Part shown: one piece after another, positions 31,923 to 62,945 of the stretch
Position numbering within the stretch: the first letter of the stretch is position 1
How the letters are laid out: every line of letters begins with the position of its first letter
Assembly: GCF_012489685.1 (NCBI RefSeq)
Contig: NC_080041.1
Coordinates: 105,059,760 to 105,123,759 of the forward strand
Direction: 5' to 3'
Source of the DNA: Lotus japonicus
Taxonomy: Eukaryota > Streptophyta > Magnoliopsida > Fabales > Fabaceae
DNA length: 64,000 bases
Position numbers and translations under genes: made by a program
Notes under the pieces: model-generated
The model's input: only the letters and a program-made list of their open reading frames with translations
What the model was told of the DNA's origin: nothing
The model's database searches: none

Positions 31923-31959
31923 CCGAAGGATACTTTCCTAGGCTTCAATTTTCACCGCA

Positions 31960-38353: not shown

Positions 38354-38417
38354 CTAGTGATTTTCTCCTTCGCCTTCGTTGTTGTTGGCGTTCTCATCCT
38401 CTTCATTTTTATCTGCT

Positions 38418-38449
<32 letters not shown>

Positions 38450-40252: not shown

Positions 40253-40620
40253 TTTGAAAAGAATTCCTGAAATTGTAAAGGATTCAGGATTTATGACATG
40301 TAGTGGGGTAAAATTGGAGTTGCAGTTGTGAAGGAGATTAGTTTTTAAGAATGATTTCAGTAAAACAAGAAGATGAAGAGGCAAAGATTTTACATGAAAG
40401 GTTTAGTGTAGAATGATGAAAAAATTGTACAAGCAGGTTGAGTGAGAAGTGCTTACCAGGGAAAGGATCTGATGAACTTGGCTAATTTGGGGGAGTTCTG
40501 GCAATGTTGGAGAACACTCGCAGGTCAATGCAGGAAACTCTACGAGTACACGAGGTTTGAGAAACTTTTGAAAGAGAAGAGTGAAGTAATTTGTAGTAAA
40601 AAATGACTGCTATATATAGA
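40253..40620 (-). promoter_or_regulatory. Promoter, leader and 5' UTR intron of the antisense Tat gene
   Basis: In the minus sense a TATA box (CTATATATAG) lies at about 40608-40617. A donor-like CCCTG|GTAAGC is at about 40457 and an acceptor TACAATTTCAG near 40270, directly before the exon with the ATG at 40252. This describes a complete promoter with a leader intron, facing away from the 3' LTR. Confidence 0.55.
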
Positions 40621-41252
40621 GAAACGGCGGAAGGTGAAGAGATGAGTTAGAAAGGTATGGTTAAAGGCACTTAAGGTAAATGGTGAGCAAACGCGTGGTT
40701 TGTGTGAATCCACGCGTTCATTCAAGCCACACATTCAAACTCATTAAGGCGGTGAATCAGCGCGCCATTAAGAGACGACGTTTGGCAAAAAGGTAGCGAT
40801 TGAATGAAGAGTGACGTCAGTTGGCAGGTGAATGTGTCGTTTCGAGGGAGTCGAGTCTTTTCAGAGAAGGGCTACTCCATGAGTGGATTTTAAATGCATT
40901 TCTTAATTAATGTGAGTAGCATAGCTTAGGTAGGCCTTATGCATTACAAGTTTCAAGATATCTGTGTTATATTTGTGATGATTGCAACAGGTACAAAATC
41001 CGGAAAGAGATTTGATTTGTGCATAGTGATTGAAGTGATGGGTGAAGTGTCATTTAGACTTCATACGCCACACAGACCGATTTAACTTTGTAATGATTAG
41101 CTTAACATTGTTTACATTATGGTTAGCCTTATTTTGTTGGAAGCCTGTGCGCTCATGAATTTATTCACATTGTATATGGGCGAACCAGACGTTGTGGGCC
41201 TAAGTAAGACACTATCGTTTTAGTTCTAAAACATCAGTGTCTTGTGGGCCTG
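40621..41252. other. Region between the antisense promoter and the 3' LTR
   Basis: No coding frame. It contains an inverted repeat at 41207-41243 with AAGACACT...AGTGTCTT and TTTAG...CTAAA arms, close to the LTR start. The polypurine tract before 41253 is weak (GTGGGCCTG). Confidence 0.5.
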
Positions 41253-41478
41253 TGGACTGATATAGGCGAACCGGGTCATTTATTTTGGGCTTATCACTAT
41301 CATGTAACAAATGGGCCGGGTAACCCATGGTCCAGCCGGACCAAAACCCAAGTTATAAATAGAAGAGGACTGCCCAAGCGGCAGGGACCCTATCATTTTA
41401 CGCATTTTTACTTATCTTGTTTACTCGGTGTTCGCTCTCTATTTCGATTAGCCCGCTCAGTGGTTCCATACCGGAACA
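41253..41478 (+). repeat. 3' LTR of the Tat element
   Basis: 226 bp, the same as 31679-31904 except about two bases. TATAAATA at 41354-41361. Followed by the GCTAG duplication. Confidence 0.9.
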
Positions 41479-41996: not shown

Positions 41997-42083
41997 TTGA
42001 AGATGCTTATCAACCAATTGATTCTAGTATTGGCGGTTCAATTAACCATCAAGATAACGTTGAATCCAATTATTTAGTAGAAG
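41997..42083 (+). CDS. Linker mini-exon copy 1 (87 bp, phase 1-1)
   Basis: The acceptor TTGCACTAG and donor GAAG|GTATG frame an 87-bp exon reading EDAYQPIDSSIGGSINHQDN followed by VESNYLVE. Being symmetric in phase 1, it can be duplicated or skipped without a frameshift. It lies between the BED and NB-ARC exons and would add a short hydrophilic linker. I know of no named domain for it. Confidence 0.6.
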
Positions 42084-42224
42084 GTATGTATTTTTTTTAT
42101 GCATTGGAAAACTAACAAAAAGAAACACCAAGTATCTTATACATTTCTCCTATATTGATTTTTATAAAAAAAAATATTGTTGAAGTATAATAACGGTGGC
42201 CTTCTTTTTTACATGTTGCACTAG

Positions 42225-42305
42225 TTGCTCCTGAACTGATTGGTACTAATATTGGCGGTTCAATTAACCATCAAAGTAACGTTGAATTCAACTATTTTGT
42301 AAAAG
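42225..42305 (+). CDS. Linker mini-exon copy 2 (81 bp, phase 1-1)
   Basis: Acceptor GTTGCACTAG, donor AAAAG|GTACG. It reads APELIGTNIGGSINHQSNVE then FNYFVK. It shares IGGSINHQ and NVE with copy 1, with a shared intron sequence before it. Tandem position, 141 bp after copy 1. Confidence 0.6.
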
Positions 42306-45206
42306 GTACGTATCTAAACTACCAATCAATTGATTATTTTTAATAAGAAAAAATATTTTCCTTCTTACTCACATGCATAGTTTTAAGACTCGGCTCGGAC
42401 CGGCCGGTCCGACCGGTTCAACCGGGACTCGGTCACCTGATTGGTTCGAGCCACTCAATATATCGGTTAAGCAGTTGAACCGGTGAGAATCGGTTCCTAT
42501 CGCTCGACTTGGCAGTTAAACCGGTGACTCGCTCGGCCCGGTCGACCCAGAAAGTCCCAAGTTTTTTTTTCAGCCACCATTTATTCCGAAAAAATAAATA
42601 AAAAAAGTCCTCACCTGGATGCATATCCTAGGAAACCTTACCACTAGGCTATGCAAGTGTTTTGCAACGTATTTACAATATATTAAATATATAGTAAAAC
42701 AATTTAAATAAATTATAAAATAACCAAACCCACCAGCACAATCACAAAGGTGATAATTGTTACTGGTGCTATTTATTTTAATATATATTCTATTTGACAA
42801 TTATTTAAAATAAGTTATTTGTGTATTTTTTATTATGATTAAAGCGGAAGACTTATGATTTTTATAATACTAGTGTTTTTTTACCCGCGCGTTGCACGAG
42901 AAATATGTCTATCGTATTTGATACATCAATTGATACTTTGATTATTAAAAATATATTAAACAACAGATGAAATAGAAGAGTCATAAATCTTAAGCAAAGT
43001 GGACATAAAGACTGCTCTTCTAAGCCTGATCCATATCAACAGGAACTCGTTTCACATTATTCGTGAATATGAAGACAACATCACAAATCTTAGATATAAG
43101 GAATTGCCAACATATTAAACAACAACGCATCCATTGAATTGGCTTAGATCTCCAAATCACAATCTTGGCGGATTTTTTTATTAGTAGAGTATGACCTGCA
43201 TCACCAAACTTCATTTTCTATAACCAATAAATATGTGTGTATGTCCATGACTCTTGTTTTCTAGCACCGTTATGTTATCAAATCCATTAGTGTGAGTACA
43301 AAAACAACACATTCACCAGCCTATACAATGAGTAGTAAATGCTCTATAATTAATGCTATATAATTAATAAGTAACCAAAAATGATTAATCTTTAAGGTTA
43401 TGTTCTAACAGTCTATTGGAGATTAAGCTTCACATGTTACTGCACCTTCCCCACTTGAAGAATCTCAATCTTCCAAGAAAATTCACTTACAATCATCAAT
43501 AGAGATGTATCTCATTTGATAGTACACAAAGCCTGCATATAACAATAAAATCCATGAAAATCATTTCCTTAGTTTTGTTTAAATCTCAAGATTTATTCCC
43601 TTGATGAGAGTCTTCATTCGAAATTCAAGTAAAAAATATTAGAAGCTGGGTAAAAAAATATAGAATATTAAGCAAAAATTAGTAACAGCATTAGTTAACT
43701 TTTAAAACATGTTTTTTTACAACTTTGACTTGTTTAGTCTATTTTCTGTTAACAATCTCATTTATTGCAGCGAAGGGTGCAAACCTTATAATGAAGGGGT
43801 TAAAACAAAAAAAATCTAGGTTTAGACTATCATAACCCTTATCACGACACAGTCAGATACTGCAATACAATAAATCATTGGACTAATCATAATAATAATG
43901 GGAAAGAAATATTGTAAGAACTAAAATAAAAAAATGTTAGTCCATTAGAAAGTCAGGAGAAAAGCTAAAATTACCTCTTGAAGAGTAGCGCAGATTCAGC
44001 AGGTGGAAGCATGCAAGACATTGCTATCATCATTAGAAAATCAAGGGGAAGAGCTCTCATCTTTCTGATGTTTGAAATCAAATCGAATGAGTTTCCAGAG
44101 TGAGAGAGTCAAAGTCAGAAGCTAATGTAATTAAATTTGAATTTAAAATCAACAATATTTGGAAACAACAATAACATTATAATTTTCACATGATGGGGAG
44201 AGAAGGAAGTGGAAATGTATAATACCATTGTAGATATAGCCTTATACAACCAGCTCTTTGGTATGTTTCTCCTTAAGCTTAGCAGAAAGTTGAGAAACCT
44301 CTTAAACTCCACTTGCTTCTTCTTAGCTCGTTGCTCCCTTCTTCATTTCAAATTCCTTTTTCGGCCAAAAAAATTGTTGATTTATTAGCCAATCTAGAAA
44401 CATAAACTCAAAAAGCATGTAACTTCAACTTTTCACACAAACTTAATTCCAATCCTAATTGAAAAGCTATTAGTCCAGAAACATATCTCTGCTTATATTA
44501 GCCAATATAGTGCCAATCACTCCAAGAAAAAAAAGAGTTTGGTACATGATGAGCTTTATAAAAATGTTTAGTATCATCCACATGTTCTAAACTGTACTAA
44601 TATGCTTTTAGAAAAACCTAAAGATATTTCATGGTAGATAGACAAAATCATCTCTAAAAAGGCATCTTTAATGGGTTCCCACCCATTTGATTGTCTATTT
44701 ATGTCTATCATATAATATTAATCTAATGTGTCACAAAGTTTGCCCGTATTCAATAGTCAAAGTGATGCTATGCAAAACAAAGATTGATAGAAAGTTAGTC
44801 CTAATCTGAATGACTATAGGGGAATAGAATAGAATATTGGCTCAAGCTTCAATAAATAGAATGTATGTAATGAAAACCTTGTCGATAAGAAATTGTAAGT
44901 CGGCACATTCCATAACTGTACATGCTTAATCATGAATTTATACTGACCCTTCATGTCCTTCAATGGCCACCCGTGTACTCCTTCCATACATCTTTCACAA
45001 ATATCTGAAAATTCAAAAGCTCCCCTAATCAGCACAAAAAAACACATCAAGCAAAAACAAACACAGGGGAAAAGCTTTGCAAATAGGTCCAAGAAGAAAA
45101 TGAAAAAAAAAAATCATATATGACAAACAGAAAACTAAACACCATACCCTAAAAATGCCAAAGTTCAAAGAAGAACACAATCTTGGTTTTGTATGTTTAT
45201 TTGTTT

Positions 45207-45990
45207 AAAAATCGGTTTCAAGATTTGTTATGGAAATAAATTTTAGGTGAAGAAAAAATTTATTTTTTTAAAGCATTAAATAATTTTTTTGTTATTTTTA
45301 TTGAATTTTCGGATTTTTATTTAATTAAGGATTTTATGAGTTTTTATTATGATTTGGTAGTTTTTATTAATTAATTTTTATAGTATTTTAATTGAATTTT
45401 TAGTTTTTCATTTAATCTAGGTAAATCATAGACAATTAGGGCAAATATTTTAAAATTTTATGAAAAAGTTTCTTAGATTTAAAATTACATTTAAAAAATC
45501 GGTTTCTAGATTTGTTATGGAAATAAATTTTAGGTGAAGAAAAAGTTTATTTTTAGAGTATGAATTAAATTTTATGGTAATTTTATTTAATTTTCGGATT
45601 TTTATTTAATTCATAATTTTATGAGTTTTTATTGTGATTTGGTGAATTTTTTATAGTTTTTATTAATTAATTTTTATGGTATTTTTATTGAATTTTTTGG
45701 TTTTTTATTTAATCTAGTTAAATTTTAGATAATTAGGGCAAATACTCTAAATTAAAATAAAATATTTCTTGAAATTAAAATTAAATAAATAATAAGATAA
45801 ATTAAAATTAAATCAAGAAATAAACAACCTAAATCATAATCAAATCTAAAATTTAAAAGGTAATAAATAAAAATAGATAAAAACTACAAAAATCTAGATA
45901 ATCACAATAAAAACTCATAAAATCCTGAATTAATTAAAAATCCGAAAATTCAATAAAAATTAATTAATACTATAAAAATAAATCAAAAAT
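45207..45990. repeat. AT-rich direct repeats of about 287 bp plus an inverted copy
   Basis: Two direct copies begin ATCGGTTTC(A/T)AGATTTGTTA at 45211 and 45498. A third, inverted stretch at about 45890-45990 matches their middle (AAAACTCATAAAATCCTGAA). Confidence 0.65.
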
Positions 45991-46060
45991 ATATTAAGTT
46001 AAAATCAAGAAATAAAAAACCTAAATCCTAATCAAATTTAAAATTTAAAAATGTTTTTTT

Positions 46061-46161
46061 TTATGAGAATTAACCTGAGAATGACACGTGAAATTTTTTT
46101 TATGAGAATTAACGTGAGAATGACACGTCACTGAGAATTAACGTGAGAATGACACGTCACT
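46061..46161. repeat. Three-copy short tandem repeat
   Basis: The unit GAGAATTAACSTGAGAATGA followed by CACGT occurs three times, the last two adjacent with a CACGTCACT junction. Confidence 0.75.
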
Positions 46162-46449
46162 AAATCAGCCTTATAGGAGTTCTTCTTTTCTAATATATAT
46201 TGATTGATTGATATTGATATTGATTTTGTTGTAGTAAAATATTTTTTGTTGGTTGTTTAATTAGGTATTTTTTTTATGGTAATGATTTTAATTATAGAGT
46301 ATGGACTTATTAATAAGTGTTAGTTAATATTATTAATTTTTACAACTTTCTAAAATACACCGAGTTAAGCAATCGAACCAGTGACTCATTGACTCAGTAC
46401 CTCGATCGAGTCGATGACCAAACCGAAATCTTAAAACACTGCTCACATG

Positions 46450-47739
46450 TTTAAAATTGTTTTTAGCTGATTTAAACATGATTTTGATTCACTTTATTAA
46501 TTTCACCATTTTTCATTCTTTGCTTTTCTGATGTGCTCAAGTTTTAAAGTGGTGACAAAGAGATTTTACTGCCTTATAGTTGAGAGATTTATTGTAATGA
46601 TTGATACTAATACTGGTAACACTCATCAAAATTATACTTAATACTTTGTTTCTAGAAAACATTGTAGTTAACCTGTTTGATTGTGTTTTCATTTTTTTTT
46701 TTCAAAACAGTTTTGTAAAATAATTTTTAAAAACTACTTTTTAGAACAATATTAAAAAAAACTTGTTTGGTAATTAGATTTTAAAAACAGTTTTGGAAAT
46801 AAAAAAACAAAAAAACGTGTTTGATAAATTTATTTCAAAAACATGTTTTAGAAACAAAAAATAGAATACTCGTTTGGACGCCATCCTTAAGGAAAAAGGT
46901 TATTAATTTTTTTTTTAAAGATAAAAATGATTATATATGAATATATTAAATCAAATAATTTTCATCATAAGATTTTTGATAGTTTACTTCATACAATACT
47001 AAATCTGTGTTCTAATTTTTTTTTGGCCTTTTCTCCCTACGAAGTTCCTCCTCTTCCTGGGTGAAGTCCTTTTTTTAAAAAAATCCAAAGATTGTATTCA
47101 TAACTAGCACTCAAGGAAGTAGAAAGCAAGAAACCACACGCGAAGTGACAAACAAGTTGAGACCTCGATACAGCTCTTGCTTAAAGACTTACACAAAGAA
47201 ACATAAGTACCAAATACAAGATACATAACCAGCAAACAAAGAAACATAAGTACCAAATACAAGATACATAACCAACAAACAGATAGATAGTGAGGGGCAG
47301 GGGCACCCATCCAACTTGATCATCAGGGATCAATCTTCCACATCCCAATAATTTTATTGTAAGAATACCATTGTACCAGCCTTTAACCTGACATGGCTAC
47401 CCCCTCACCCTGTGGCGGAGCTAGAATTCTTATGAAGCCCGGGCAAGATTAAGGTTAAGTGTAACTGTCCACATCTAACATCTGACCCACATTTTTAAAT
47501 TGCGGTTGCGGTCGCGGTTGCAAGTGTTGCGGTCGCGGACATTGCAATGTTGCGGCTACTGCAGCGTAAATAGTCTGTTGCAATATCAAATATATCTCAT
47601 TCTCTATTAAAGTTGACCGATTATTAAACCGATCGAGACCCTAATTCAATGTTAAATAATAAACCTGTGGCTAAATCGTGATTTTATATTTAAATAATCT
47701 TTTGGCTAAAAAGCATTTTTAGCCCCTAATTTTTTAAGT
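46450..47739. other. Intron sequence with fragments of old repeats
   Basis: No coding frame. Features seen: an A/T-rich block with CAAAACAGTTTT-type motifs (46680-46870) that has a reversed counterpart near 50930-51010; a 46-bp direct repeat AACATAAGTACCAAATACAA at about 47195 and 47240; and a GCGGTTGCGGTCGCGG block (47500-47570) typical of transposon ends. Confidence 0.4.
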
Positions 47740-48187
47740 TTGTGCAAATTCTACCCCTACTCTATTTTTGTCTACGTTTCTACCCCTCATGTTTTCAAAC
47801 AGTGCACCCGTCTACCCCTCTGTCAGTCAGACTTTCTCAAGAGAGGTTTCTGAGTGGATTGGAGAGATGAATAGGAGTATATGAAGTTGATGATGATCTA
47901 GGAAATGATATTAATTAAATTTGCTTGATGTATATATCAATTATGTATGTAACTGAACTGGTTACATGCATGTTTTGTTACTTACAGGTCTTAAGTTTAA
48001 ATCTCCCTTGTCCATTTTTTCCAATTTCACTTGTAATTTCCACATGGCAAGTCCAAAAAATATTAAAAAAAGTCACATCAGCTCATTCTGTTAGTTTTTT
48101 AACGTCTGACTAACGGAGAGGTAGACGGTGCACTGTTTGAAAACATGATAGGTAGAAACATCGACAAAAATAGAGTAGGTGCACAAC
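47740..48187. mobile_element. Fold-back MITE with long inverted repeats
   Basis: Arms of about 85-90 bp (47740-47829 and 48105-48187) are inverted copies sharing CATGTTTTCAAACAGTGCAC and CTACTCTATTTTTGTC. The interior has no transposase. The flanking duplication is not clear. Confidence 0.65.
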
Positions 48188-48202
48188 TTTTCTTTATAAC
48201 TA

Positions 48203-48571
48203 GGATTATACCCGTGCGATGCACGGATCATTGCTTAGATTATTATGAGATTTGAATTATTGGCAGACGAAGACGCAGAAGCAATCAAAATTATTGGCAC
48301 ACATATAAAAATTTTATGTTTTCAAAACTTTAAGTGTTCATTATAGTAGAAAAGTAATTAACAAATTCATACAAACTTAACTAAATGATAATAACAAATT
48401 AAGGAGTAACAATGGATATAAGTTCAAAAAAACAATGGATATAAAGTTTTTTTTTAAACACTGGATATTTAATGTGATATATTCATTTGTATGCTCGGGC
48501 ATCAAGGGGATTAGTATGACTGTCAAAAAAAAGATGGATTAGTATGGCTATTGGATGTGCATATATATATG

Positions 48572-48620
<49 letters not shown>

Positions 48621-50070
48621 TGAGAAACTAAAAAATAACAGATTAGTTTCATGTTAGCTTCACATATCTTTTCTATGTTTTTTTTTTCAATAGCATTATA
48701 AAGATAATTTTACAAAATGTGGCAAATTTAACTGTAATGTGCTTTTTAAGTAGTTTGGATAAAAAAACTTGGTGCCAACAATAACAATATTAGTTTGTGA
48801 CTTTGAATTCTTGATTTAATCTGAAATAAATGAAAAAGATATCCGATTTAGTGAACAACTATCAGGAAGATTGCAAAACACTAACAATTGACACCTATAG
48901 AACTACACATAGATAAAACTATTAAAAAACATGCATAAGAAGTCATTGAAAAGAAACCTGTCAGAAGTCATTTTGTAAAACCAACTAACCAAGAAAAACA
49001 AACGTCCACATTGTCATTAAAAATCATATCAAATAAGTAAAAAGAGAATCCGTGAAAAGAGAATCCCTGAGTTATATCAGGATGCTACTTCTTGACCTGC
49101 TTTGCTCATGTTCTTTGCTAACAGTAGCCATTCTTGATTCTTCAGTTCCATTAACAGTAGACCTGTCAGAATGCAAGTATGGCTCAGTACTAAGCACTTA
49201 GTGCGAAGTTGGATATGGAGGAAGATCACAAGAAATTGCAGGTGACATAAGTACTCTCACTACCTGTATCTTTTACCCACATCAGGACCTTGGTATTGCA
49301 CTCGTGTAGGATGGCTTGACAAAAAAATATTAAGGAGTTCCCAAAAACTAACCAGTTGTGGATAATACTCAACCTGCATTGTGTAAGCAAACAAAAATGG
49401 AAAATTCAATAAAATCATCCAAGTTCAACTCACTGCGTTAATAGATCAATGAAGCTATATACTGATTTTAAGATGTAGGGTGGATTGACAATTTTCTTTT
49501 GTTCATGGTCTAAAAGGAAATCACACCATGTGATAAATGCTATGAAAAATTATCAACATATGGTAGTCACATGAACTGCACAATCAGAATCAAGACAACC
49601 ACACTTTGATAAAGCATTATGCACTGCTATATTTATCAGATGAATAATTGAGTAAAGGTTGTTCTTTTCATGGACAGATAATTAACAATCATCCATCATA
49701 TCATAAACTGTGTATGTCAACTAAGCACTCAATATTTTTTTAGAATCTACTTCAACTAAGCACTCAATATTTTTTTTTAGAAAGCAAAACAGTTTTATTG
49801 AGGACAAAGAAAGCTTGAGAACAACCTTCTCAAGGTAGGTGAAGTAAGGCTGCCAAAAAACACACAAGTAACCAGCATCACAAGAGCCAAAAAGAAAAGC
49901 AAACAAAACACAAAACAGGGAAACCATAAACAAAAGCAAATAACAGGGGCATAACTACAAAACACTTACAAAAAGAAAGAAAGTCCCCCTCAATGATAAA
50001 TCTACAACAACATGCTGATAAACTTAACATATTCAGAAACATTGGCATTAAGCAAAATGGCTTAATCAAC
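48203..50070. other. Non-coding content of the 41-bp-repeat segment
   Basis: An AT microsatellite lies at 48561-48619. On the minus strand around 49080-49180 a short open stretch reads LLMELKNQEWLLLAKNMSKA, followed by GQEVAS and a stop, which could be a captured gene end. No larger frame was found. Confidence 0.35.
48561..48619. repeat. (AT)n microsatellite
   Basis: Uninterrupted alternating AT over most of 59 bp, with TATGTATATATA and ATATACATATAT interruptions. Confidence 0.9.
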
Positions 50071-50111
50071 CATCGACAAAAATAGAGTAGGTGCACAACT
50101 TTTCTTTATAA

Positions 50112-51277
50112 TTCAATCAAGTAAACAATAAAGATATTTAGTCTAGAATGTTCATCTCACACACCGTGGTTACTGGTTAGTCAAAAAGCATAGAGTGACT
50201 AACGTATCTTTCTCAATAATCTCTGCATCCAGCATCATTCATCCTTCACTGCTCAACCATCCCAATTTTTTTCACAGTCACAACACAAGCCATGTCTCTT
50301 TCTCAACAATCTTTGTACCCACAATCTTTGCACCCAGATGCTATACCCATGAAGCAAAACCATCCTCATCAAACTAAACTCATATCTTACCTGAAAATCA
50401 AGAAATTTATCACAGAACCCAGAAATTTCCAATCATCTTCTTCTTCCTTCTCCTCCTTCTCCTTTTAAAACAAGTGTAGAACCAGATCCATGACTGACCC
50501 AGAAGCACAATGTCAAACAAAAAGTGAAAATCCAAACGAAACCCTTTTTCTGAAATATGTAAACCTCAATAGACCCAATACATTCAGAGAAACAAACGAA
50601 GAGGAAGAAAAGAGGCATCACCAAACATGCTAACTTCACCGAATCAATAACAGAGGAAAAAGAGGAGCAAATCCTTATCGGAAGAGAAATAAAAGAAGAG
50701 GAGTAAATTTGCCTTATAGCAAGAGAGAACGATTTCGGAGCGGCCAGTCAACAATGAGAAGCCATGTTCAGGATGCGGGGTCAGACTCAAATGAGCAAGT
50801 AAAGAGAAAGAAGATGTAGTAGAAACCAATATTTACAATAGTGCCATTAATGAAAAACAGGAAAACAACCCGTTCTCCATGTTTTTGCTATTTCCGGAAC
50901 AGAAATTTAAAAACAGGAAACAAAAACAATTTTTTTCTGTTCTGATTTTATTGTTTTAAAAACAAAAAAATTGAAAACAGTTTTCAAACAGTTTCTTTTA
51001 CTTTATTTTATTTTTTAAATTTTGTTTCTAAAAATTTAAAATTTTCTATTGTATTAATTGGTTGGTTTGCAAACCTTCCCGCTAACTTGCAGACTAGAGT
51101 AGTATGAACGCGAAATAATTAAATATTATGTCCGCTTATTTTGAAGACCAACCTGGTCCGGTCCATTTAAAAGTGGGCCACACAGATCGGGTAAAAAAGG
51201 ATCAAATTGGCATGCACACCCACCTTAAGTTTTTGACATATTGAAATGAGTGGTGTTATGCTCCTTAATCCTCATCA
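50112..51277. other. Intron sequence, no gene seen
   Basis: AT-rich with TCT-rich stretches on the + strand and several chance frames. AAACAGTTTTCAAACAGTTT-type motifs near 50975 may be one end of an old transposon (partner near 46680). Confidence 0.35.
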
Positions 51278-52164
51278 AATCTCACCCTATCAATTCAACG
51301 TCTGCTAGGGTTTGTCTACTGAGTGCTGCTTCTCCCCCTTGGGGGGTTCCTCCCCCTTTGGGGGACTTCTTCTCCTCTAGGGAGTTCTTTTCCTGCTTTA
51401 GGTAGGTTTCTTCCCACATCAGGTGGGTTTTCTTCCACATTAGGTGGATCCTTTACCCAAATAAGTGGGTTTGTTTTGGTTTTGTTCCTTGGCCATCACC
51501 ATCTTCCTCTAACCCCCGCCACCCTCTCCTCCACGGCCATTCCTGTCGCCGCCGCTGCCACCCTTGCCTCCTCTAGTCTTTTCCGCCGCCATCTACCACC
51601 GGGGTGTCAAAGCTCTAGATCTGGCACTGTTCTTCTCAGATCCGGGTTCTCTGATAATGCTTCAGTGATCTACAAGCCCGTTCCAGATGCTTTGGTGTTC
51701 TTGGCTCCCCTTTCCCAGTTCTGCAGCTCCTACTGCTGCCTGTATGGAATCTTCAAAAGTTCTCCTCTTTTCCTTATTCTCAGAGGTGCAGAGTTGACCC
51801 CTATTTGGTGCCGTTGAAGCATACTGGCTTCGCTTTTCGCCGCCGCAGTACAACTTCGGCAGAGCCGTTTTGTTGTAAAGAGGGAGCACTGGTTAAAAAT
51901 GTTGGTTTTTATCTGCTCAGAAGTTAATTGGCTCTCTGTTCATTTGGATTTTAGGGGCTTTTGTTGGGCTCTAGGGTTTTTACATCATGTTTTAGCTGAT
52001 TATTTCAGTTGAGTGTGCATGCTTGCGCTTAATTTTCTTATGTATTTGTGCATTGCGAATAGCGCTCTTAGAGAGTTTTCTCGCATGTTGTAAGTGCCGT
52101 TTGGCAAACCTCTGAGTTTTAATTCCATACATCTTTGACCAAAAAAAAAAAATCTCACCCTATC
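51278..52164 (+). mobile_element. Poly(A)-tailed retro-insertion with 14-bp target duplication
   Basis: The inserted 51292-52150 segment ends in an A-run and is flanked by AATCTCACCCTATC at 51278-51291 and 52151-52164, the hallmark of target-primed retrotransposition. The 5' part is GC-rich with CTGCTAGGGTTTG, CCCCCTTGGGGGG and GCCGCCGCTGCC stretches. The 3' part is T-rich like a 3' UTR. A 164-codon frame (51323-51817) has no recognisable domain. It may be an internally deleted LINE or a processed host transcript; I cannot tell which. Confidence 0.75.
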
Positions 52165-52195
52165 GAGTCACACCTTGATGTCGCATGGTTTTTAA

Positions 52196-52500
52196 CCCTA
52201 ACATTTTAATATTCAAAGTAATTTTAATATTTTGTTTAGGATCTTTTAATTCCGTTTATGATATTATCTTTTAAATTCCTTTAGAATCTTTTAAATTCGT
52301 TTAGGATCTTTTAATTTTATCTAGGATTATCTTTTATTTTCGTTTAAATTAAATCTGTTTGTTTTCTTTTAGGATATTTTCTTTTCCTATATTTTTTTTT
52401 GGTACATCGGAAAGATAAATTGCATCTGTTAGGAATCGAACCCTGGACCTCCCCCTTGAGCTATCATACGGGACCTATTTTTTGATAATAAAATTTGAGA
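52196..52500 (+). repeat. Old LTR fragment (family also at 55040 and 56430) with a SINE-like insertion
   Basis: Repeated TTTAGGATCTTTTAAT and TTAGGATATTTTCTTTTCCT phrases and GATAATAAAATTTGAGA match the LTR-like copies at 55040-55426 and 56430-56766. At about 52398-52475 it is interrupted by a minus-strand tRNA-like segment (box A TAGCTCAAG, box B GGGTTCGATTCC). Confidence 0.45.
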
Positions 52501-52691
52501 ATTTTTTATAATCATATTTTTGGCTTTGAAAGACATAAAGGTTTTTTTTTACAGAATTATGTCATGTTTGTCATAATATGATATAGTCATTTCTCCCATT
52601 ATTATCTTGAAAAAATATTGTTGGAAGTTTAAAAATGTTGATTAGATTTTGTTTTATATTTTTGTTTATGTTGCACTTATGTTGCTTGAAG

Positions 52692-52760
52692 GTGCTCCTG
52701 GAATGATTAGTACTAATATTGGTGGTCCAGTTAATCATCAAGATACTGTTGAATATGGAG
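52692..52760 (+). CDS. Linker mini-exon copy 3 (69 bp, phase 1-1)
   Basis: Acceptor TTGCTTGAAG, donor GGAG|GTAAAT. It reads APGMISTNIGGPVNHQDTVE then YG. It shares the IGG-x-x-N-H-Q-x-x-VE core with copies 1, 2 and 6. The 120 bp before and the intron after it are also duplicated elsewhere. Confidence 0.6.
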
Positions 52761-53021
52761 GTAAATGTCTAAACTTGCAATCAATTTATGATATATTTCT
52801 TATAGGTAAGCCATTATGCTAATGATTAATATGATCAAACCTTTGAAAGACAGAGATAAAAGTTTACTTTACAATATGTATTTTAAAATAATTATGTCAT
52901 TTATAATAATATGATAAAGCCATTTTTCTATTATTTTGAAAAGGAAAAAATTGTTAAGAGTTTGAAAATGTTGAATAGATTTTTTTATATTTTTCATTAT
53001 GTTGCACTTTAGTGCGTGAAG

Positions 53022-53070
53022 ATGTTCATGGAACGACTATTGCTTATTTTGGGGGTCCGGTTAATTGTGC
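53022..53070 (+). pseudogene. Linker mini-exon copy 4, decayed
   Basis: It is preceded by the same TATGTTGCACTT block. It reads DVHGTTIAYFGGPVN and then runs into intron sequence (GTGCTGACATATAAG) without a donor, because the 3' half of the exon has been deleted. Confidence 0.5.
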
Positions 53071-53840
53071 TGACATATAAGTTGTTTTGTTTGATTTATT
53101 TCTAATGGATCAAAAATTTATATTAGATTTTATATCTAGGTTCAATCATGTGTTGTCATTATTTTCAATACATGATTCATTTAAAAAAAAATCAATATAT
53201 GATTGAAAATTAGTTATAATCAGTGTATTTTACCCGCGCGTTGTACGGGAAATTTGTCTATTGTATTTGATACATCGATGATCGATCAATATTTTAAATT
53301 ATAAAAATTTAAGATACTAAGAATGTAAGAACAGTCATAATAAAGATGTAGACATTTAATGAGCATAAATTCAGACACTCAATTCTAGTGTTTTGTAAGC
53401 ATACATTGAATTTCAATTAACTAATATAAAAATTTTGAAAAACACATAAGTTATTAGGTCAAAATCTTTAAGTTTTGCATATGTGAGGTATAACTATATT
53501 TTGTTTGCGAAGATGTATATCCGTGTTGCATAAAGGGTATTGCTTTTGTATTTTAGATATGTAACAATACATAAATATATAACTATTGTTTAAATTATTA
53601 AAAATACACTTCAGTTATACAAAAATGAATTATTTTTAACTCAATAAAATTTTCATTTTTCATGTAAAATGTTCCTCCCCGTGAGATCTCGTAACTCTAA
53701 TATGTTAGCACTAATAAATTTAGGTCATAAATTTATAGTATAGATGTATTAATATTTTTTATTTCTCGTACTATTCTTACTATAAAATTATAATAGTTAT
53801 GTACATATATAAATATACACTCTTGAAATTTTGAAAAAAA
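53071..53840. other. Intron sequence with a Helitron-end-like hairpin
   Basis: At about 53230 TTTTACCCGCGCGTTGTACG followed by GGAAATTTGTCTATTGTATT resembles the hairpin end at 42880; both are followed by TTTGATACATC. The rest is AT-rich and non-coding. Confidence 0.4.
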
Positions 53841-54715
53841 TACTAAGTTGCCAAAAGGCGGAGGAAATAAGCAATATTTAGCACTCCGAAGGCACCAAAC
53901 CAAAACGAAACCCAGAAGCACGACGCAGGGAGCATCAAGACTGGAGCATCAAGAACAAAAAGGAGACGTCAATAAAGAAAGGAAGGTGCAGACCAACAAA
54001 ACTGAGAAGACCACCGCCGCGCATCCAGAAACGAACCGCCAAAAAAACCGTTGCAACACACCACAAACCCAAATCCACCACCAACAACGATCCCAAACTG
54101 CACACCGAACACCCTGAATAAGGGCGTTTAAACCTGAATAGAGCCAACCACGGCGCAACCAAGGTGCAGATCGGAAGTGAAAATTGCAGCAAAGAGACTC
54201 TCTTGCTGTTGCTCTCTCTCGGTTGAAAAACAGAGCATCGTCATGAATAGCAGTAGAGCAAACAGCGAAGAGCCAAACCGAAACTTACTCTGGTAAAGGG
54301 AGATCTGAACCAGAGGCGGCGAAACCCACCGCAACAGGGGCAGGCAGAGGAACCACGACTGGAAATGAAAATAGGGGCGAAGGAAACCAGGAGAAGTCTG
54401 AACGGAAAACCTAGAGCTTAAAAACCTAAGAGTTTGCCGCCACGAGAAAGCGAGAAGAGCCTCCGCGAACCAATGACAGTGACGCCTCTTAAAACTAGTG
54501 GGGGACGCATCCAAAGGAGGGGAGCCGCGGAACGAAACTTGAAATCGAACACTAGCAAAAGAGGAAAAGAACTAGGAAGGAGGAGGAAGAGGCCCGCAAC
54601 CGTGAAAGGAAGAAGGAGCAGAAGGTTGAAGGAAGGAGGAGCCCCAACCCCATGGAGGGGAAGGGGCGGCGCTGGGTACCAAAAGCCCAACCCTAGCAGA
54701 CTGTGTTTTTTTTAA
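53841..54715 (-). other. GC-rich block, possible minus-strand LINE-type or processed sequence
   Basis: Far richer in GC than its surroundings. In the minus sense it begins CTGCTAGGGTTGGG, the same start as the retro-insertion at 51300 (CTGCTAGGGTTTG), then reads CCGCCCCTTCCCC. Several 80-130-codon frames occur on both strands with no domain. No poly(A) or target duplication was found, so the type is open. Confidence 0.35.
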
Positions 54716-54940
54716 CTGTGCAAGAGTTAAACAAAACCTGTTAATTTCTAATCTATTTTGATGTAGCCTTATATAAGTTGACCCACTTAACTCGCAAGTT
54801 CATGTGTTTGTGTTTTTCCGTATGTTTATATGCAACATATATTTTTATCCCTTAAAATAATAATTAAAATGAATAAAATAAGTTTTAAATACTTTTATTT
54901 AGAAGGATAGCTCAAGTCTTCCATTTGTAAAAAAAAAAAA

Positions 54941-55030
54941 GGATAGCTCAAGTGGTAAGAGTTAGGGACATAGGGTGGGGTGGAATGAAGGGTGAAGGCC
55001 CGGGTTCAAACCCGGAGGATGAATTAATTT
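54941..55030 (+). mobile_element. tRNA-derived SINE-like sequence
   Basis: Box A-like TAGCTCAAGTGGTAAGAG and box B-like GGTTCAAACCC occur 44 bp apart in the right order, preceded by an A-run. The phrase GGATAGCTCAAGT also occurs just upstream at 54905. It is not a functional tRNA, because no cloverleaf arms close around it. Confidence 0.55.
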
Positions 55031-55039
55031 ACTAACATT

Positions 55040-56766
55040 TCTAAGAACTAACATTCGTTTAGGATTTTAATTTCATCTAGGATTATATTTTAATTTTGCT
55101 TAGGATTTGTTTATTTTCTGTTAGGATATTTTCTTTAGATAATGATAGAGTGCACTAGGATGTAGGCACGATGGGAGCAGAGGCAGTTTCTGGCGGTTTA
55201 AAACCGCCAGAAATGTGTAGCACTTGCGTTTTTCCCTGGCACCGCATATTAAACCGCCACTAACTGTTGCTCGTGCACTCTCGTGCATAATCCAGTCGAG
55301 CCGAATAGTATTGCTCTTTTCCTATTGAGTTTGTTATTGATAATAAAATTTGAGAGTTTTCTCACTTTCTAGAGTTATCCTTTTAGGGTCCAGCGCATGC
55401 TAACCCTTGTGTGCTTCTGAATGCGTCAAGTGGTATCAGAGCTGACTTTCTCATGTCTCTTTTCATAGCTTGATTAATCATGGGAGATCAACCAAAAATC
55501 AAAGCAGACCTTGAGGGTTTTACCGCGGGTGTTGCCCTGGCCCTAACCGCTTTGACGCAATAGATGGCGACGTTAACGGCGGGTATAACAACATGGAGGT
55601 ACAACGTGAACCAGCACAGAGATAGGGGAGGAGAACAACATAGGCGTGGAGGCACAAATAATTGTGCCATTGCTATGAGAAGTTTCAGTTCTTCTCAGGA
55701 CCCTCCTTGCTTCTTTGCTTTGAAGGTCTGGGATGCCTAGAAGGTTGGAGCTTCTGCAGTTCTTGTTGCCGATAATGTCAAGGAACGCTTAACAGGTTGT
55801 CCCATATCTTGATGATCGTGCAAATGCTGTCATAAAATCGCTGGGTCTTGATATCGAGAAGATTGAGAAATGCGTGGGAGATCCAGATATTCATATAAAA
55901 AACTCCCTTTTGAAGAAATAGTAAGAAGCCCACGTTGGAAAGGGATCACAAGTGATGTTACCATATTGCCTACTCTTGTTGTCAATAATCGACAATACCA
56001 AGAAAATTGGAGAAAGGTGTTGTTCTTAAAGATATTTGTTATGGGTTTGAGGAAACTACTGAATTGACTATTTGTTTAAACAGTGGTATGGAGATAAATG
56101 AGTTCTTAATGAACAATGGTGGTTGTTGGCAGGATATAGTGGCTAATATTACTACATACAAGGATACGAGTGTAACAACTGAGCCCCAAGGATACGAGTG
56201 TAACAACTGAGCCCCATGAATTCATTTTGGCTAAATATGAGCAGTTTTTTGGTAGAATTCATGTATTTGACCCTGGCATTCTTGATGACACTGACATTCA
56301 GATTTAGGTAGATGAGCCTTTTATCAAGATAAGAAATCGGGGTCGAGTTCTTCAGAGGTGGTGGAGATGAATGTAGCACGGTGTTTGGCCGTCTGAATTC
56401 GTCTCAAGCCTGGAAAAAAAAACATTTTAATATTTAAAGTAATTTTATTATTTTGTGTAGAATCTTTTAATTTCATTTAGGATTATCATTTAAATTCGTT
56501 TAGGTTAATTTCGTTTAGGATTATTTTTTAAATTTGTTTAGGATATTTTAATTTCATTTAGGGTTATCTTTTAATTTCGTTTAGAATTTGTTTATTTTCC
56601 GTTAGGATATTTTCTTTTCCTATTTAAGCACTTGTAAAGCATAGCCTATTGAATTTATTATTGATAATAAAACTTTAGTAGATTCCAGACTTTCTGGTGG
56701 ATTTCAGAGTTGTTCTTTTAATTTTCAGCGCTTGCTAATCCTTATCACGCTTCTAACTGCATCACA
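55040..56766 (+). mobile_element. Degenerate LTR retrotransposon remnant with a 1-kb internal region
   Basis: Two diverged LTR-like copies (55040-55426 and 56430-56766) share GATAATAAAA(T/C)TT and CAGCGC(A/T)TGCTAA(C/T)CCTT blocks. After the first is GTGGTATCAGAGC, an initiator-Met-tRNA primer site. The internal region holds only short broken frames. The left LTR is itself interrupted by a palindrome-bearing insertion near 55145-55300. An old, deleted copy. Confidence 0.5.
55188..55212. repeat. 25-bp near-perfect palindrome
   Basis: Arms TTCTGGCGGTTT and AAACCGCCAGAA around a single A. It lies within a ~145-bp insert bounded by AGAGTGCAC (55147) and GTGCACTCT (about 55273-55281). GGCGGTTTAAACCGCC motifs are familiar from CACTA-type elements in plants. 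Confidence 0.7.
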
Positions 56767-56769
56767 CCT

Positions 56770-57211
56770 TGCTTTTGGCGGCGAGTCATGACAAATTCTC
56801 CTGTTTTAGCCACCGTTACTCTCACCTCATCCATCATTTCAATCCCAAAATTAATACTAGCCCTCTAGTCTAAGAGGAAGGAAGTCCATTTTATTTATAC
56901 AGTTTTGATGAGTACTCTTAAAGTGTCATCAGCAAAGTTGGAGATAATTATGTAATATTTTAGGAACTAATTTTATATGTATTTAAAAAATATTTTTTCT
57001 TGTACAAATATGTATTTAAAGAGTATGATAACACTTTAGTCTTTTAGAGGAAATAATTTAACAATTTTACAGAATTATGTCATGTTTGTCATAATATGAT
57101 TCATTTAGTCATTTCTCCCATTATTATCTTAAAAAAATATTTTTGGAAGTTTAAAAATGTTGATTAGATTTGTTTTATACTTTTGTTTATGTTGCACTTA
57201 TGTGCGTGAAG
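56770..57211. other. Intron sequence with the conserved pre-exon block
   Basis: From 57070 (TTACAGAATTATGTCATGTT) it matches 52555-52690 nearly base for base, showing the duplication unit includes intron. No gene seen. Confidence 0.5.
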
Positions 57212-57252
57212 ATGTTTATGGAACGGCTAATGAGTATATTGGGGGTCCGGTT
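57212..57252 (+). pseudogene. Linker mini-exon copy 5, decayed
   Basis: It reads DVYGTANEYIGGPV and then joins intron-like sequence (ATGATATATACAA). It is the closest relative of copy 4, with the same lost 3' half but a different junction. Confidence 0.5.
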
Positions 57253-58187
57253 TATGATATATACAATTTTTTATAGGTAAGTTATTGTGCTGACATATAA
57301 GTTGTTTTTTTGATTTATTTCTAATGCATCAAAAATTTATATTACATTTCACATCTAGGTTCAATCATGCATTGTCATTATTTTCAATACATGATTGAAT
57401 TTTTTTTATAATTATGTAATATTTTGGGAACAAATTTGATATTTATTTACAGATCATTATAAGAATGCTTTAATTTTTTAGAGAAAATAATTTTACGTTA
57501 AAAAATATTAAAGGATTAATATGATCATATCTTTACCTTTGAAAGCCCGAGATAGAAGTTTGTAACCAAAAAAATATTATATTCTAACACGCTGTCTCAC
57601 GCAAGAACTCTTTTTTTTTTCTAAAGCAAAAGAAATAATTATATAAGCTACTTGAAGAGCTAATCATGAAGGAATACATAAGGGGAATGAAGATTAGTAC
57701 ATCGAAAAGCTAACCAGCACACAATTATAGGCAACCCCACAACCAAAAAAGTAACCCCACCTAGTCTAAAACCAAATAAACAGACCCATGACATGGCGGA
57801 AAGGACCACCCAGCCAGCTCAACCCTCGGGACCTTATGTTTTCAGCAATGCCATATGCTTTTTAGTTCAACTTTTTTATTAGAAAGACTTGGGGCGACAT
57901 GGATTGAACTCTGGACCGCTTGGTTATAGAGGCTCCGATACCATGTCAAGCAACCAATGATCTCAACAGCTTAAGCTTTTGAGTAAAGACCACATCAATT
58001 ATATTATATTATATTCTAACAAAATTTACCTTACAATGTTTTTTTAGAAAACAAATTTCATGTTTATCATAATTTGATATAGTCATTTCTACTATTATTT
58101 TTTTGAAAAATAAATTGTTGTAAGTTTGAAAATGTTGAATAGATTTTATTTAATATTTTTCATTATGTTGCACTTAAATGTGTGAAG
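57253..58187. other. Intron between mini-exons 5 and 6
   Basis: It holds the duplicated intron block again (58060-58180). An old insertion at about 57600-57970 has a minus-sense tRNA-like end (TTGAGATCATTGGTTGCTTG, then GGTATCGGAGCC). No gene. Confidence 0.4.
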
Positions 58188-58256
58188 ATGCTCATGGAAT
58201 GATTAGTGATGATATCGGTGGTCCAGTTGATCATCAAGATAATGTCGAGTATGGAG
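58188..58256 (+). CDS. Linker mini-exon copy 6 (69 bp, phase 1-1)
   Basis: Preceded by TGTGTGAAG, donor GGAG|GTAAAT. It reads AHGMISDDIGGPVDHQDNVE then YG. It has the same length and ends as copy 3. It is the last copy before the NB-ARC exon. Confidence 0.6.
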
Positions 58257-60453
58257 GTAAATATCTCTATGTATGATATATAATTTCTTAAGTATATGTA
58301 AGCTATTGTGCCAACATATAAGTTGTTATGTTTGTTTAATTTATACCGCATCGAATTTTTTTATTAGATATAACGTTTAGGTTCAATGATACATTGTCTT
58401 TATTTTCAATGCATGAATGAAAACTGGTGGTAATTATGTGATATTTGAGGAACAAATTTGATATGAATTTAAAGATTAACATGATAATGCTTTAATTTTT
58501 TAGAGAAAATAATTTTATGACAAAAGTCCTTAAAGGATTAATATGATCATATAAACCTTTAAAAGACAAAGATAAGAGTATACTGTACAATGTTTTATTA
58601 GAATGATTAATATGATCATATTTTTTTCCTTTGAAAGACAAATAGTTTACTTTACAATGTTAAGCTATTGTGTTGACATATAAGTATAGTAATTGTAGTA
58701 TAGTAAAGGGTTTTGTCGTATCCACAAAAATGTATAATACTTATGTCATTCAATAGTTAACAAACTTAAATCATTATTTCACAAGATATTGTTTGTTTTT
58801 TATATATGAAAATAAAATTGTAAAACAAGTATAATAACGGAGAAACAACATGTATGAGAATTTGTTGGGATTAGTTTTCATTGTTTAACCTTTTTGCATT
58901 CTAGTGATTCAAATACAAACTAAGCCTAAGAATATGATTCATCTACTCCAGTTCAACCCTACTTCATTGATGTCTTACGTGAGTGGATAGCAATAATCTA
59001 TAATCCTAAACATGAATGTCTCACATGATTAAGCAAAAGTTATCATGAATTGTCGGTATTTAAGTAACTAACAAACCTAACTCTATGCGAATTATTAGGT
59101 GATTAACTCTAGTTAGGACTCAAAAAGTTGTAGCTTCCGCTCACAAGTCGAATAATCAAGCAAAATACCCTAGGTGCACAATCTAAAATATAACATGAAG
59201 ATCAAGATAAAACCACTAAATCACAAACAAGAAACATGCTTTATATTGAAGAGAATCATATAAAAGCATAAGTATCATACAACTACATCAGATCCCAACA
59301 AAAGAGAGAATAGTTATCCTTTTCCATGGATAGTTTTAAAAATAAAGATGAAGAATAAGAAGAATCAAAGCTGTCGCGATGTCTCGCCGCCGAATTCAAT
59401 ATACATGCCTTCTCTCTAGCTTCCTAAACCTCTTCTCTTGTTCCTCTTCCTTTTAATCCGAGTTAAGTGATGCCTCCTAAAACCTAATGAGAAAATGATT
59501 TTTATATGAAAAGGTGAGTATAGGGAGCTTAACACCACTTTCTGGGTGCTCAACATTAATTCTATTTGGATGTATAGTGATGTTTAGGTTTTGTGTTGGA
59601 TTATGTTAATGTTTTGAGAATGAAGGGGGAAGAAGAAGGAAATCAAGACCATGAAGGTTGTGGTTTAAGGGTTGCAAATGATTAAGATGAAAACTTTATG
59701 GATTTGTTTAAGCTTTAGGCTGAAGATGAAAGAAGATGATGGAGGATGAAGATGATTGAGGACAAAGATGGTAGTTTAAGATGAAAATTTATTATTTATT
59801 ATTTTAGTTGAAAAAATAAAAATATTCCATGTCACATAAAACCTACCTGCCAACAAGTTTTTTTCGCAAATAGAAATATGTATTAATAAAGTGATGAGGA
59901 AATTTGTAAGATTTACACCTTCCTCTCAGGGATCAAAAAGAAAGCAACCTAGAAAGAGTCAGAAAAATCACCAAGAGAAAAACCTACACCCGGAGAGATG
60001 CCAAAAAACCCGCCCCCAAAGCCTAAACAAACTCTTCTAGAAGCCAAACAACCAACAAAATCCACCTAAGGCCACAAAAACAGCCGCCCCCAAGCCAACC
60101 AATAAACTAGAAAACACATGCCAACAAGTTAAGGGATGAATTTCATTGAAATTTTAATTCTTGGACTAATATCAATAACTCGCTATAGTTCAGGGGCCAA
60201 AACATATATAACCCTTTTATTTTTTATCTTGCGAAAATATGAAATATTTTTTCTCAACCATATATTAATGTTAGCACGTGATATAATTTAAAAAATTTAG
60301 TTTCTTTTGTTTAATGCTGAATTAGTTCAAAATCCAAATCAGAAGTTATGAATCAGTTTCTTTTTACTTTTGCTGCACGAGAAATAGTTAGTCTTAAAAG
60401 CTTTCACGTGACTTACTTTAGTAATTAATTTTAAAAGATTGTCTAAATGATTC
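58257..60453. other. Last NLR intron: duplicated blocks and an Athila-LTR-like relic
   Basis: At 58440-58680 phrases such as GATTAATATGATCATAT and TTTACTTTACAATGTT repeat two or three times. From about 58690 to 59830 the sequence (TTTGTCGTATCCACAAAAAT, ATGCGAATTATTAGGTGATT) has the feel of a diverged gypsy LTR, but I cannot fix its ends. At 59860-60120 a C/A-rich stretch looks like the tail of an old LINE-type insertion. No gene. Confidence 0.35.
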
Positions 60454-60746: not shown

Positions 60747-61216
60747 GTTTGAGGCACAATGTGAACGAAAACAACAATGTTACTGGAGCTTTCGAAGAGG
60801 AGATTAATCAATTAAGTCAAATCATTTCTGATCTACAACGTGATGAAGATGACATCAAGGGACAATTACAATGGTTGGAATCTCGAGGCAAAAAGCGCAA
60901 GAGAGAAGACGACAACTGGTTACATGAACTAGAAGGCTTTAAAAGAAGAGCTGGTCATATGATCCAGTCTCGGTCGCTATCAGGTATAGAGAAATTCACC
61001 CAAGAAGTAGAAAAGCATAATCAATCAAAGCCTTTGGTGTTGTCAAATGAAATTGTTGGTTATAGGTTTGTGAAAAAATTCAAGAAGGTGTGGAAGCTTC
61101 TAGAGGATGACCAAGTACTCATCATTGGCATATATGGAATGGGAGGAGTGGGTAAGACTTTTCTAGCTAAATATGTGAAAGATGAAATAAAAAGGAAAGG
61201 AACATGGGATGTCTTT
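60747..61216 (+). pseudogene. NLR exon, first part: coiled coil and start of NB-ARC
   Basis: The acceptor GAAATAG precedes 60747, and the phase-1 G from the upstream exon gives GLRHNVNENN. A coiled-coil N-terminus follows (EEEINQLSQIISDLQRDEDD, EDDNWLHELEGF). The P-loop is IYGMGGVGKTFLAKYV. The part breaks at GTWDVF, where the MITE is inserted. NLRs bind ATP/ADP through this domain and act as intracellular pathogen sensors. There is no ATG of its own at the exon start, consistent with an internal exon spliced to the BED part. Confidence 0.8.
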
Positions 61217-61401
61217 GAGTAATGATATATACACACCTCATCTTTTAAACACTTCATTTCCACTTATTTTTGTTTCTACCTCTCTCCTCTTATTATCTAT
61301 CACATCTAAAACTTTCTCTCTCTTACTTTTTCTTTTCTTCCTATCTCTTTCCTCCTCCACCTCCTTCCACCTCAAAATGAGGTGTGGATAAAACATTTTC
61401 C
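61217..61401. mobile_element. 185-bp Mutator-type MITE inside the NB-ARC exon
   Basis: Terminal inverted repeats of about 26 bp (GAGTAATGATATATACACACC; other end, reverse complemented, GGAAAATGTTTTATCCACACC) share CACACCTCAT. They are flanked by a perfect 9-bp duplication GATGTCTTT (61208-61216 and 61402-61410), the size made by Mutator-like transposases. It introduces a TAA three codons in. Without it and one duplication copy the NB-ARC frame is continuous (GTWDVF then WVKVSQNFS). Confidence 0.88.
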
Positions 61402-62640: not shown

Positions 62641-62945
62641 ACAGTTTGTTTTGTTCAGCGGATTCTTGTTGCAAATCTTCAAGTCATCTTTATTCGACTC
62701 TGGAGTCAATAAAAGTAGAATATTGTGATTCAATGAAGGATATCTTTGCTAATGCACCGCAGCCTTTCCCCGGCGCGTTCGCTAGCCTGAAGCATATTTA
62801 TATCTATGACTGCAGTGCGCTAGAGTATTTGCTGACAGCAGAGATAGTGCCACAACTTCAAAATCTGGAGACAATAGCTGTAATTGATTGTAAATCAATG
62901 AAGGAGGTATTTGCTAATTATTTTATATCATCGAATGAGGAGTAA
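62532..62945 (+). pseudogene. NLR C-terminal LRR fragment in a shifted frame
   Basis: In the next frame the protein resumes as CILDNNQWTCLCNGLSSEG, then LRR-like blocks KLNSLFCSADSCCKSSSHLY, STLESIKVEYCDSMKDIFA and ALEYLLTAEIVPQLQNLETI, to the stop at 62943. These end blocks (LE.i.V..C..m.e.f) are common at the C-terminus of RPS2-like NLRs. Only a handful of repeats remain, far fewer than usual, so most of the LRR was deleted along with the frameshift at about 62520-62545. Confidence 0.7.

Follow-up and report, generated by a model that had tools for sequence, protein, structure and literature searches.

In the legume Lotus japonicus, a stretch of 64,000 nucleotides on contig NC_080041.1 (assembly GCF_012489685.1, forward strand, positions 105,059,760 to 105,123,759; hereafter the window, with coordinates counted from its first letter) carries a gene of the nucleotide-binding leucine-rich repeat receptor (NLR) type, in which a BED-like zinc finger precedes a coiled coil (CC), an NB-ARC domain and leucine-rich repeats (LRRs). 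The finger is encoded on the plus strand by an exon at 29981..30251 (MGRRKNQDYW...NSLQ), which ends in phase 1 at the donor G|GTAAAT, while the exon encoding the CC and the start of NB-ARC (60747..61216, plus strand) is entered in phase 1. Between the two lies an array of copies of a tiny phase-1 exon. An earlier note had described this array from the sequence alone and had suggested that the encoded peptide may set the spacing between the BED finger and the receptor core.

Copies of a phase-symmetric mini-exon

Four copies, all on the plus strand, are intact in the sense that an AG stands upstream, a GT downstream and both boundaries are in phase 1: E1 (41997..42083; 87 bp, 29 residues), E2 (42225..42305; 81 bp, 27 residues), E3 (52692..52760; 69 bp, 23 residues; acceptor at GAAG) and E6 (58188..58256; 69 bp, 23 residues). 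The core IGG[SP][IV][ND]HQxxVE is encoded by all four, and their lengths differ by multiples of three only. Two plus-strand remnants, E4 (53013..53065) and E5 (57212..57276), have lost their 3' halves by deletions that extend into the intron; the deletion in E4 took the donor with it, so that the copy reads into TAA, and E5 kept its donor GTAAGT and ends in TAG. Positions, lengths, phases, the core motif and the truncation of two copies were re-derived from the sequence in agreement with the earlier note. Paired AG acceptors (CACTAG or CTTTAG, then GAAG) lie 6 nt apart at E1 (41991-42002) and 9 nt apart at E4 (53007-53021); E3, E5 and E6 are devoid of the first of the pair, and its use seems to have shifted to the second.

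Chance resemblance among the copies is excluded by the E values of pairwise BLASTN within the window, which amount to 7.6e-29 for E1-E2, 1.9e-12 for E2-E3, 7.6e-10 for E1-E3, 1.4e-64 for E3-E6 and 8e-68 for E4-E5, with every pair on the plus strand. An nhmmer profile built from the 300-bp units around the six acceptors was applied to the window on both strands; the scores of the six copies themselves hold by construction, and the scan revealed no further full copy in the 64 kb, nor anything else below E 0.18. The match at that value (58560-58607) is located inside one of two exon-less unit remnants 3' of E6 (58533..58684, plus strand), which were recognized by pairwise BLASTN: 58533-58609 matches 52821-52894, 58602-58658 matches 52821-52875, and the two remnants match each other at 75%. 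A segment at about 46580..46657 (plus strand), picked by eye and termed E2b, is probably a seventh, degenerate copy, judging by its local alignment score of 42, which is reached by 2 of 391 background windows (top score 48), both of them on the tail of the BED exon, the best other window scoring 40. Hence, all six copies counted in the earlier note stand, to which the probable E2b and the two exon-less remnants are to be added, and two of six copies, or three of seven if E2b is counted, are dead. The tail of the BED exon (30161-30254) yields, with E1, the top local score outside the array (48) and resembles it in phase and donor; derivation of the mini-exon from the 3' end of the BED exon was nevertheless rejected as not separable from chance, given that its ungapped score of 30/55 is equalled at the unrelated position 53321.

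As the earlier note had stated, the frame is preserved however the BED exon is joined to the NB-ARC exon: the four intact exons can be combined in 16 ways, all of them free of stops and inserting between 0 and 102 residues. Variation of linker length by splicing or between alleles is thus plausible as far as the reading frames are concerned. Alternative or mutually exclusive splicing among the copies, yielding isoforms with different tethers, would draw on this symmetry of the four intact copies and on the paired acceptors of E1 (6 nt apart) and of the remnant E4 (9 nt apart). However, openness of all subsets follows from duplication of a phase 1-1 exon by itself, and E5 could act as a poison exon among the isoforms, since it retains an acceptor as well as the consensus donor TAG|GTAAGT, yet its 65 nt close with an in-frame stop. 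Splicing of this kind is therefore regarded as a highly improbable explanation of the array.

Tandem units, mosaicism and transposon insertions

The repeated unit encompasses intron together with exon and reaches up to about 1 kb. Duplication of 115-130 bp of intron upstream of each exon, as the earlier note had it, is correct for the upstream side but does not mark the limit of the unit, since the downstream intron is common to the copies as well: the unit from E5 to E6 measures 976 bp, and the E5 and E6 units are 72% identical over 526 aligned columns flanking the exon on both sides. The units are arranged head to tail, the tail of one abutting the next. At 56939..57059 (plus strand), the tail of the E4 unit, with an 82-86% match to the downstream DNA of the E6 unit, stands directly before E5; E4 and this tail are separated by a later insertion of about 3.7 kb (~53220-56935, limits set by eye). 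Together with the pairwise matches, this arrangement bears out the earlier claim of repeated duplication between the BED and NB-ARC exons.

The intron after E2 is split by a 4.07-kb DNA transposon (42376..46441) with the terminal inverted repeat CA..GTTTTAAGA and the 8-bp target-site duplication (TSD) CTCACATG, which, by its features, is taken to be of the hAT type. Once this element is discounted, E2b follows E2 by about 280 bp, which resembles the 228 bp by which E2 follows E1 and indicates that the head-to-tail array came first and was spread by transposons later; it now extends over about 16 kb. Between the BED exon and E1, a long terminal repeat (LTR) retrotransposon has been inserted (31679..41478, plus strand; 226-bp LTRs with 2 mismatches; 5-bp TSD GCTAG), presumably of the Ty3/gypsy type as judged by its coding order. 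If 6.5e-9 to 1.3e-8 substitutions per site are assumed to accumulate each year, the element is young, namely 0.3-0.7 million years old, an estimate derived from just two differences. Most copies of the mini-exon unit are far more diverged than the LTR pair (2/226 differences), and the array is therefore older than the LTR insertion.

Since the region is crowded with transposons, the repeats might themselves be a transposable element that carries an exon-like stretch by chance. Yet the unit is confined to this intron array within the 64 kb, its copies stand head to tail, and its peptide is present in the linker of orthologous proteins (see below). In agreement with the earlier note, the profile scan found no full copy scattered outside the array, so that a transposon origin of the unit was rejected within the window and appears scarcely credible overall.

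Comparison of E3 with E5 reveals an abrupt change of identity along the unit, the upstream intron being 97% identical (114/118) and the 5' half of the exon 66% (27/41; Fisher p=1.2e-6). Such a mosaic is expected from unequal crossing-over or conversion within the array. With respect to selection, the exons of E1 and E2 are better conserved than the preceding introns (56/69 vs 62/108, p=0.001), a contrast that may be exaggerated because the intron before E2 is just 141 bp long and perhaps not homologous throughout. Identities of the exon 3' half between E1/E2 and E3/E6 were left unused on account of probable misalignment from an apparent 12-nt gap, and proportions of nonsynonymous (pN) and synonymous (pS) differences were calculated over a core of 21 codons, a first version that preceded this restriction having given a similar picture. 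The copies are under weak selection at most, and neither purifying nor positive selection is convincing.

The broken host gene and its legume relatives

The receptor gene is interrupted within NB-ARC by a 185-bp insertion resembling a miniature inverted-repeat transposable element (61217..61401), which is flanked by the TSD GATGTCTTT at 61208-61216 and 61402-61410. The remainder of NB-ARC and the LRRs follow at 61411..62945 (plus strand) after a change of frame and without an equivalent of about residues 681-843 of P0004 (PHAVU_011G074800), a Phaseolus relative. NB-ARC (PF00931) scores 30.1 bits before the insertion and 142.5 bits after it; a C-terminal LRR is present (LRR_8, 35.2 bits) and is about 160 residues short relative to P0004, one open reading frame matching residues 292-680 of P0004 and a second one residues 844-972. 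An intact reading frame of a working receptor is thus not present, NB-ARC being interrupted and part of the LRRs lost, and the locus is a pseudogene. Because the receptor is broken in both domains, the array cannot now set any spacing in a working receptor here, which is where the earlier proposal of a spacing role does not hold; the part of it that places the peptide between BED and CC is supported by the colinear Phaseolus and Vigna proteins and by the P0004 model described below.

Relatives were collected with the joined protein as query (residues 1-290 scored), which gave 6 of 912 candidates, and with P0004 (residues 1-215), which gave 18 of 450, making 22 distinct relatives in all, 17 named ones of which stem from Phaseolus, Vigna, Cajanus and Arachis. 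By BLASTP, the BED-like exon matches the N-termini of 13 of the 22. BED and NB-ARC would belong to one transcript, judging by the colinear order in these 13 protein predictions (P0001-P0005 and P0007-P0014). The label BED, as used in the earlier note, lies below the Pfam threshold: the zf-BED profile (PF02892) matches the window exon with 12.3 bits, short of its cut-off of 20.6. Among six relatives scanned in Pfam, zf-BED reached 12.9-17.6 bits in four, all below the cut-off, and was unlisted in P0004 and P0013, while inspection by eye shows the ligands Cys-x2-Cys...His...Cys both in the window exon and in all six.

The peptide encoded by the mini-exon recurs in the linker of several of these proteins. 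E1 (VEDAYQPIDSSIGGSINHQDNVESNYLVE) aligns without gaps to the single-copy cassette in the linker of P0004 (VAERVGEMTDIVGGSINHETGSTLLGVVE) with 9 of 29 residues identical, a match equalled by none of 20,000 shuffles. In an anchored test, E1 was placed ungapped where the BED segment ends (e.g. at VITTSQ) in 9 of the 13 BED-like relatives, the anchors being set by eye; P0007 likewise gave 9/29 identities and 0/20,000 shuffles, and the Vigna proteins P0011 and P0012 gave p values of 0.0005 and 0.0004. Independently of anchors, the best match of a 15-residue motif in the whole protein is the linker in P0004, P0007 and P0008 (N-terminal shuffle p 0.001, 0.000 and 0.011, of 1000 shuffles), in P0008 with an offset of four residues; elsewhere, p amounted to 0.054-0.059 in Arachis and 0.23 in Cajanus. 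In the Phaseolus vulgaris paralogue P0009, alignment with P0004 leaves one clean 26-residue gap directly after the anchor, which is what the lack of a symmetric cassette exon would produce. Whether orthologues skip all segments, a question raised by the earlier note, is answered for the predicted proteins, with one copy in P0004, P0007 and P0008 and none in P0009. Over the 13 BED-like relatives, one copy is counted in five (P0004, P0007, P0008, P0011 and P0012), a clean absence in P0009 and a likely decayed copy in P0010, and six (P0001, P0002, P0003, P0005, P0013 and P0014) are left unassigned. A clean loss of the cassette in P0013 and P0014 had been considered and was dropped, as the alignment does not settle it. 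Viral contigs searched for plant DNA with P0016 as query gave no match. Since the cassette matches in Phaseolus and Vigna relatives, it is older than their split from this gene; on the evidence of these protein comparisons, the cassette is old and was multiplied in this gene.

Tether length, motif number and comparison with known receptors

P0004 was modelled with AlphaFold2; the underlying alignment comprised 20 of the 22 relatives and is gappy across the linker. The model places the BED-like segment at the very N-terminus (residues 1-50, in blocks whose mean predicted local distance difference test score, pLDDT, is 54-78) and begins the coiled-coil helices at residue 135, whereas residues 57-134 have a pLDDT under 50 and no secondary structure (block means 25-31 for 61-130). 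The cassette, at about residues 77-105, falls within this low-confidence stretch, so that the BED-to-CC linker is, according to the model, probably disordered. Moreover, the four joined window exons comprise 16 D/E and 1 K/R in 102 residues. Composition and low confidence together fit a flexible acidic tether.

The favoured account, which we hold to be somewhat more probable than its negation, takes the observed copies, frames, head-to-tail units, mosaicism, match of E1 to the Phaseolus linker and breakage of the gene as its starting points. An old phase-symmetric cassette exon would encode about 23-29 residues of the tether between the BED-like finger and the CC/NB-ARC core of a legume BED-NLR. 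Unequal recombination, which we infer as the copying route, would have multiplied the exon with flanking intron, in units no longer than about 1 kb, into six, probably seven, exon copies standing head to tail, while recombination between copies would have reshuffled intron and exon parts and deletions would have killed two or three of them. Subsequently, transposons would have stretched the array over its present length, and the gene would have been broken by the NB-ARC insertion and the partial loss of the LRRs, an order of events relative to amplification that is itself conjectural. As long as the gene was functional, 23-29 residues would have been added to a flexible, acidic, Gly/Asn-rich tether by every copy that was included; since the frame is unchanged by each included copy, copy number would have been freely tolerated, tolerance rather than positive selection being the presumed condition of its growth.

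Several results weigh against this account. E4 and E5 are devoid of a mosaic signal (intron 85/115, exon 35/41, p=0.19), and exon and intron are equally diverged between E3 and E6 (59/69 vs 99/119, p=0.84). Pooled over the six non-independent pairs of intact copies, pN is 0.23 and pS 0.29, with little sign of constraint, and in the pair E1-E2 pN exceeds pS. Inclusion of the mini-exons in mRNA is predicted from sequence, the Phaseolus exon boundaries are inferred from protein gaps, and low pLDDT is no proof of disorder. In the anchored test, P0008, P0010, P0013 and P0014 were non-significant, and P0009, which is without the cassette, still gave p 0.02, a measure of test noise in view of which weak p values mean little; the tally over nine relatives is two with p below 0.0001 and two more around 0.0005. 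A hidden Markov model of the peptide gave weak matches among the 22 relatives (E 0.0056 for P0007, 0.013 for P0004 and 0.34 or more for the others). In addition, a search with the array alone as query, at E up to 10, retrieved no multi-copy protein among 61 candidates with lengths of 0.55-1.75 times 758 residues. Amplification may hence be private to this dying gene.

An alternative view is that the array is neutral debris, amplified during or after loss of function, so that no copy ever belonged to a functional receptor and none bears on linker length. Breakage in NB-ARC and LRR, the dead copies (two of six, or three of seven with the probable E2b), the equal divergence of exon and intron in E3-E6, the closeness of pN to pS and the missing multi-copy protein among the 61 candidates all speak for it. 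Opposed to this are the frame, motif and splice sites, which are kept in the intact copies despite intron indels, the better conservation of exon than intron in E1-E2 (p=0.001, with the contrast perhaps exaggerated), and the fact that the array predates the young LTR insertion. On balance, neutral debris is considered rather unlikely, though the most probable of the rival explanations.

A further explanation holds that the core GG[SP][IV][ND]H is a docking motif and that extra copies conferred multivalency. Indeed, of the nine residues that E1 shares with P0004, six make up GGSINH, in a linker that is otherwise variable and probably disordered, and GG-x-[IV]-[ND]-H is kept in all four intact copies. 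On the contrary, the motif is decayed in the Vigna copies (GRSINN) and absent in P0009, and is therefore dispensable; moreover, it is without known partner and without a selection signal. Amplification of a short linear motif is thus deemed very unlikely. A broader proposal would see in legume BED-NLRs an evolvable tether in which the mini-exon with the conserved GG-x-[IV]-[ND]-H rises and falls in number (0, 1, up to about 7) by tandem duplication of intron and exon, thereby tuning the length of the disordered link between BED and core or the valency of the motif; it entails intact multi-copy orthologues in the genus and is, as a whole, an unlikely idea.

To our knowledge, the tether between an integrated domain and the NLR core has been little studied.

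Grass BED-NLRs such as Xa1/Xo1, Yr5/Yr7/YrSP, Rph15 and Pm6Sl share with the gene described here a BED finger N-terminal to NB-ARC-LRR and the presence of a coiled coil. In the grass proteins, BED is reported to lie between CC helices 3 and 4 and to form a CC-BED module (PMC11436982), whereas the P0004 model predicts BED at the N-terminal end, separated from the coiled coil by some 78 residues of low confidence. The portions of PMC7761493 and PMC11436982 examined contain no mention of a mini-exon array. In legumes, zf-BED NLRs have already been reported for common bean and other species (PMC8113540, PMC4759884), and P0004 and its Phaseolus and Vigna kin display the same colinear order of BED, linker, CC and NB-ARC with a VGGSINHE cassette, but have one cassette at most, compared with six or seven here.

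Another NLR case in which a single exon was duplicated within the gene is that of the Prunus Ma and RMja genes of the TNL (Toll/interleukin-1 receptor-type NLR) class, for which five repeated post-LRR (PL) exons and intragenic gain and loss of copies are described (PMC6141779). There, the resistance gene is in use and the repeated exon encodes a post-LRR domain at the C-terminus, whereas here a 23-29-residue exon of an N-terminal linker is repeated in a broken gene. Likewise, the ROCO genes of brown algae, as candidate immune receptors, contain small symmetric-phase exons in arrays; each 72-bp exon, in phase 2, encodes a single LRR, and splice variants are reported (PMC11378527). In contrast to these LRRs, the repeats described here are in phase 1, probably disordered, and known from genomic sequence alone. 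A literature search, with subscription journals mostly outside its reach, found no paper on duplicated linker exons in BED-NLRs. Exon duplication in NLR genes is thus known, while the multiplied BED-CC linker mini-exon is apparently new; it is real and has a readable history in a dead gene, and its function is putative. This suggests that exon-level copying in NLR genes extends to linkers, beyond LRR or post-LRR domains. Moreover, relatives in which the cassette is absent, single or multiplied would constitute a natural series in which tether length or motif number could be compared with recognition or autoactivity.

Two further features of the Phaseolus linkers were observed. P0009 carries another insertion of about 20 residues in its linker (with EVVEDDLERVDFSGL), which by eye resembles a partial repeat of VVEGDLGDIERVD, so that a second linker module may also be variable in number. 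In P0015 and P0018, both from Phaseolus, the annotated start lies inside the cassette (MTDTVGGCSINHE) and the BED segment is missing, which possibly reflects the choice of the annotated start or a BED-less form. Elsewhere in the window, long retrotransposon coding stretches are found on the minus strand at 21277-25413 and 9904-12270, which by eye resemble integrase/reverse transcriptase and gag/protease.

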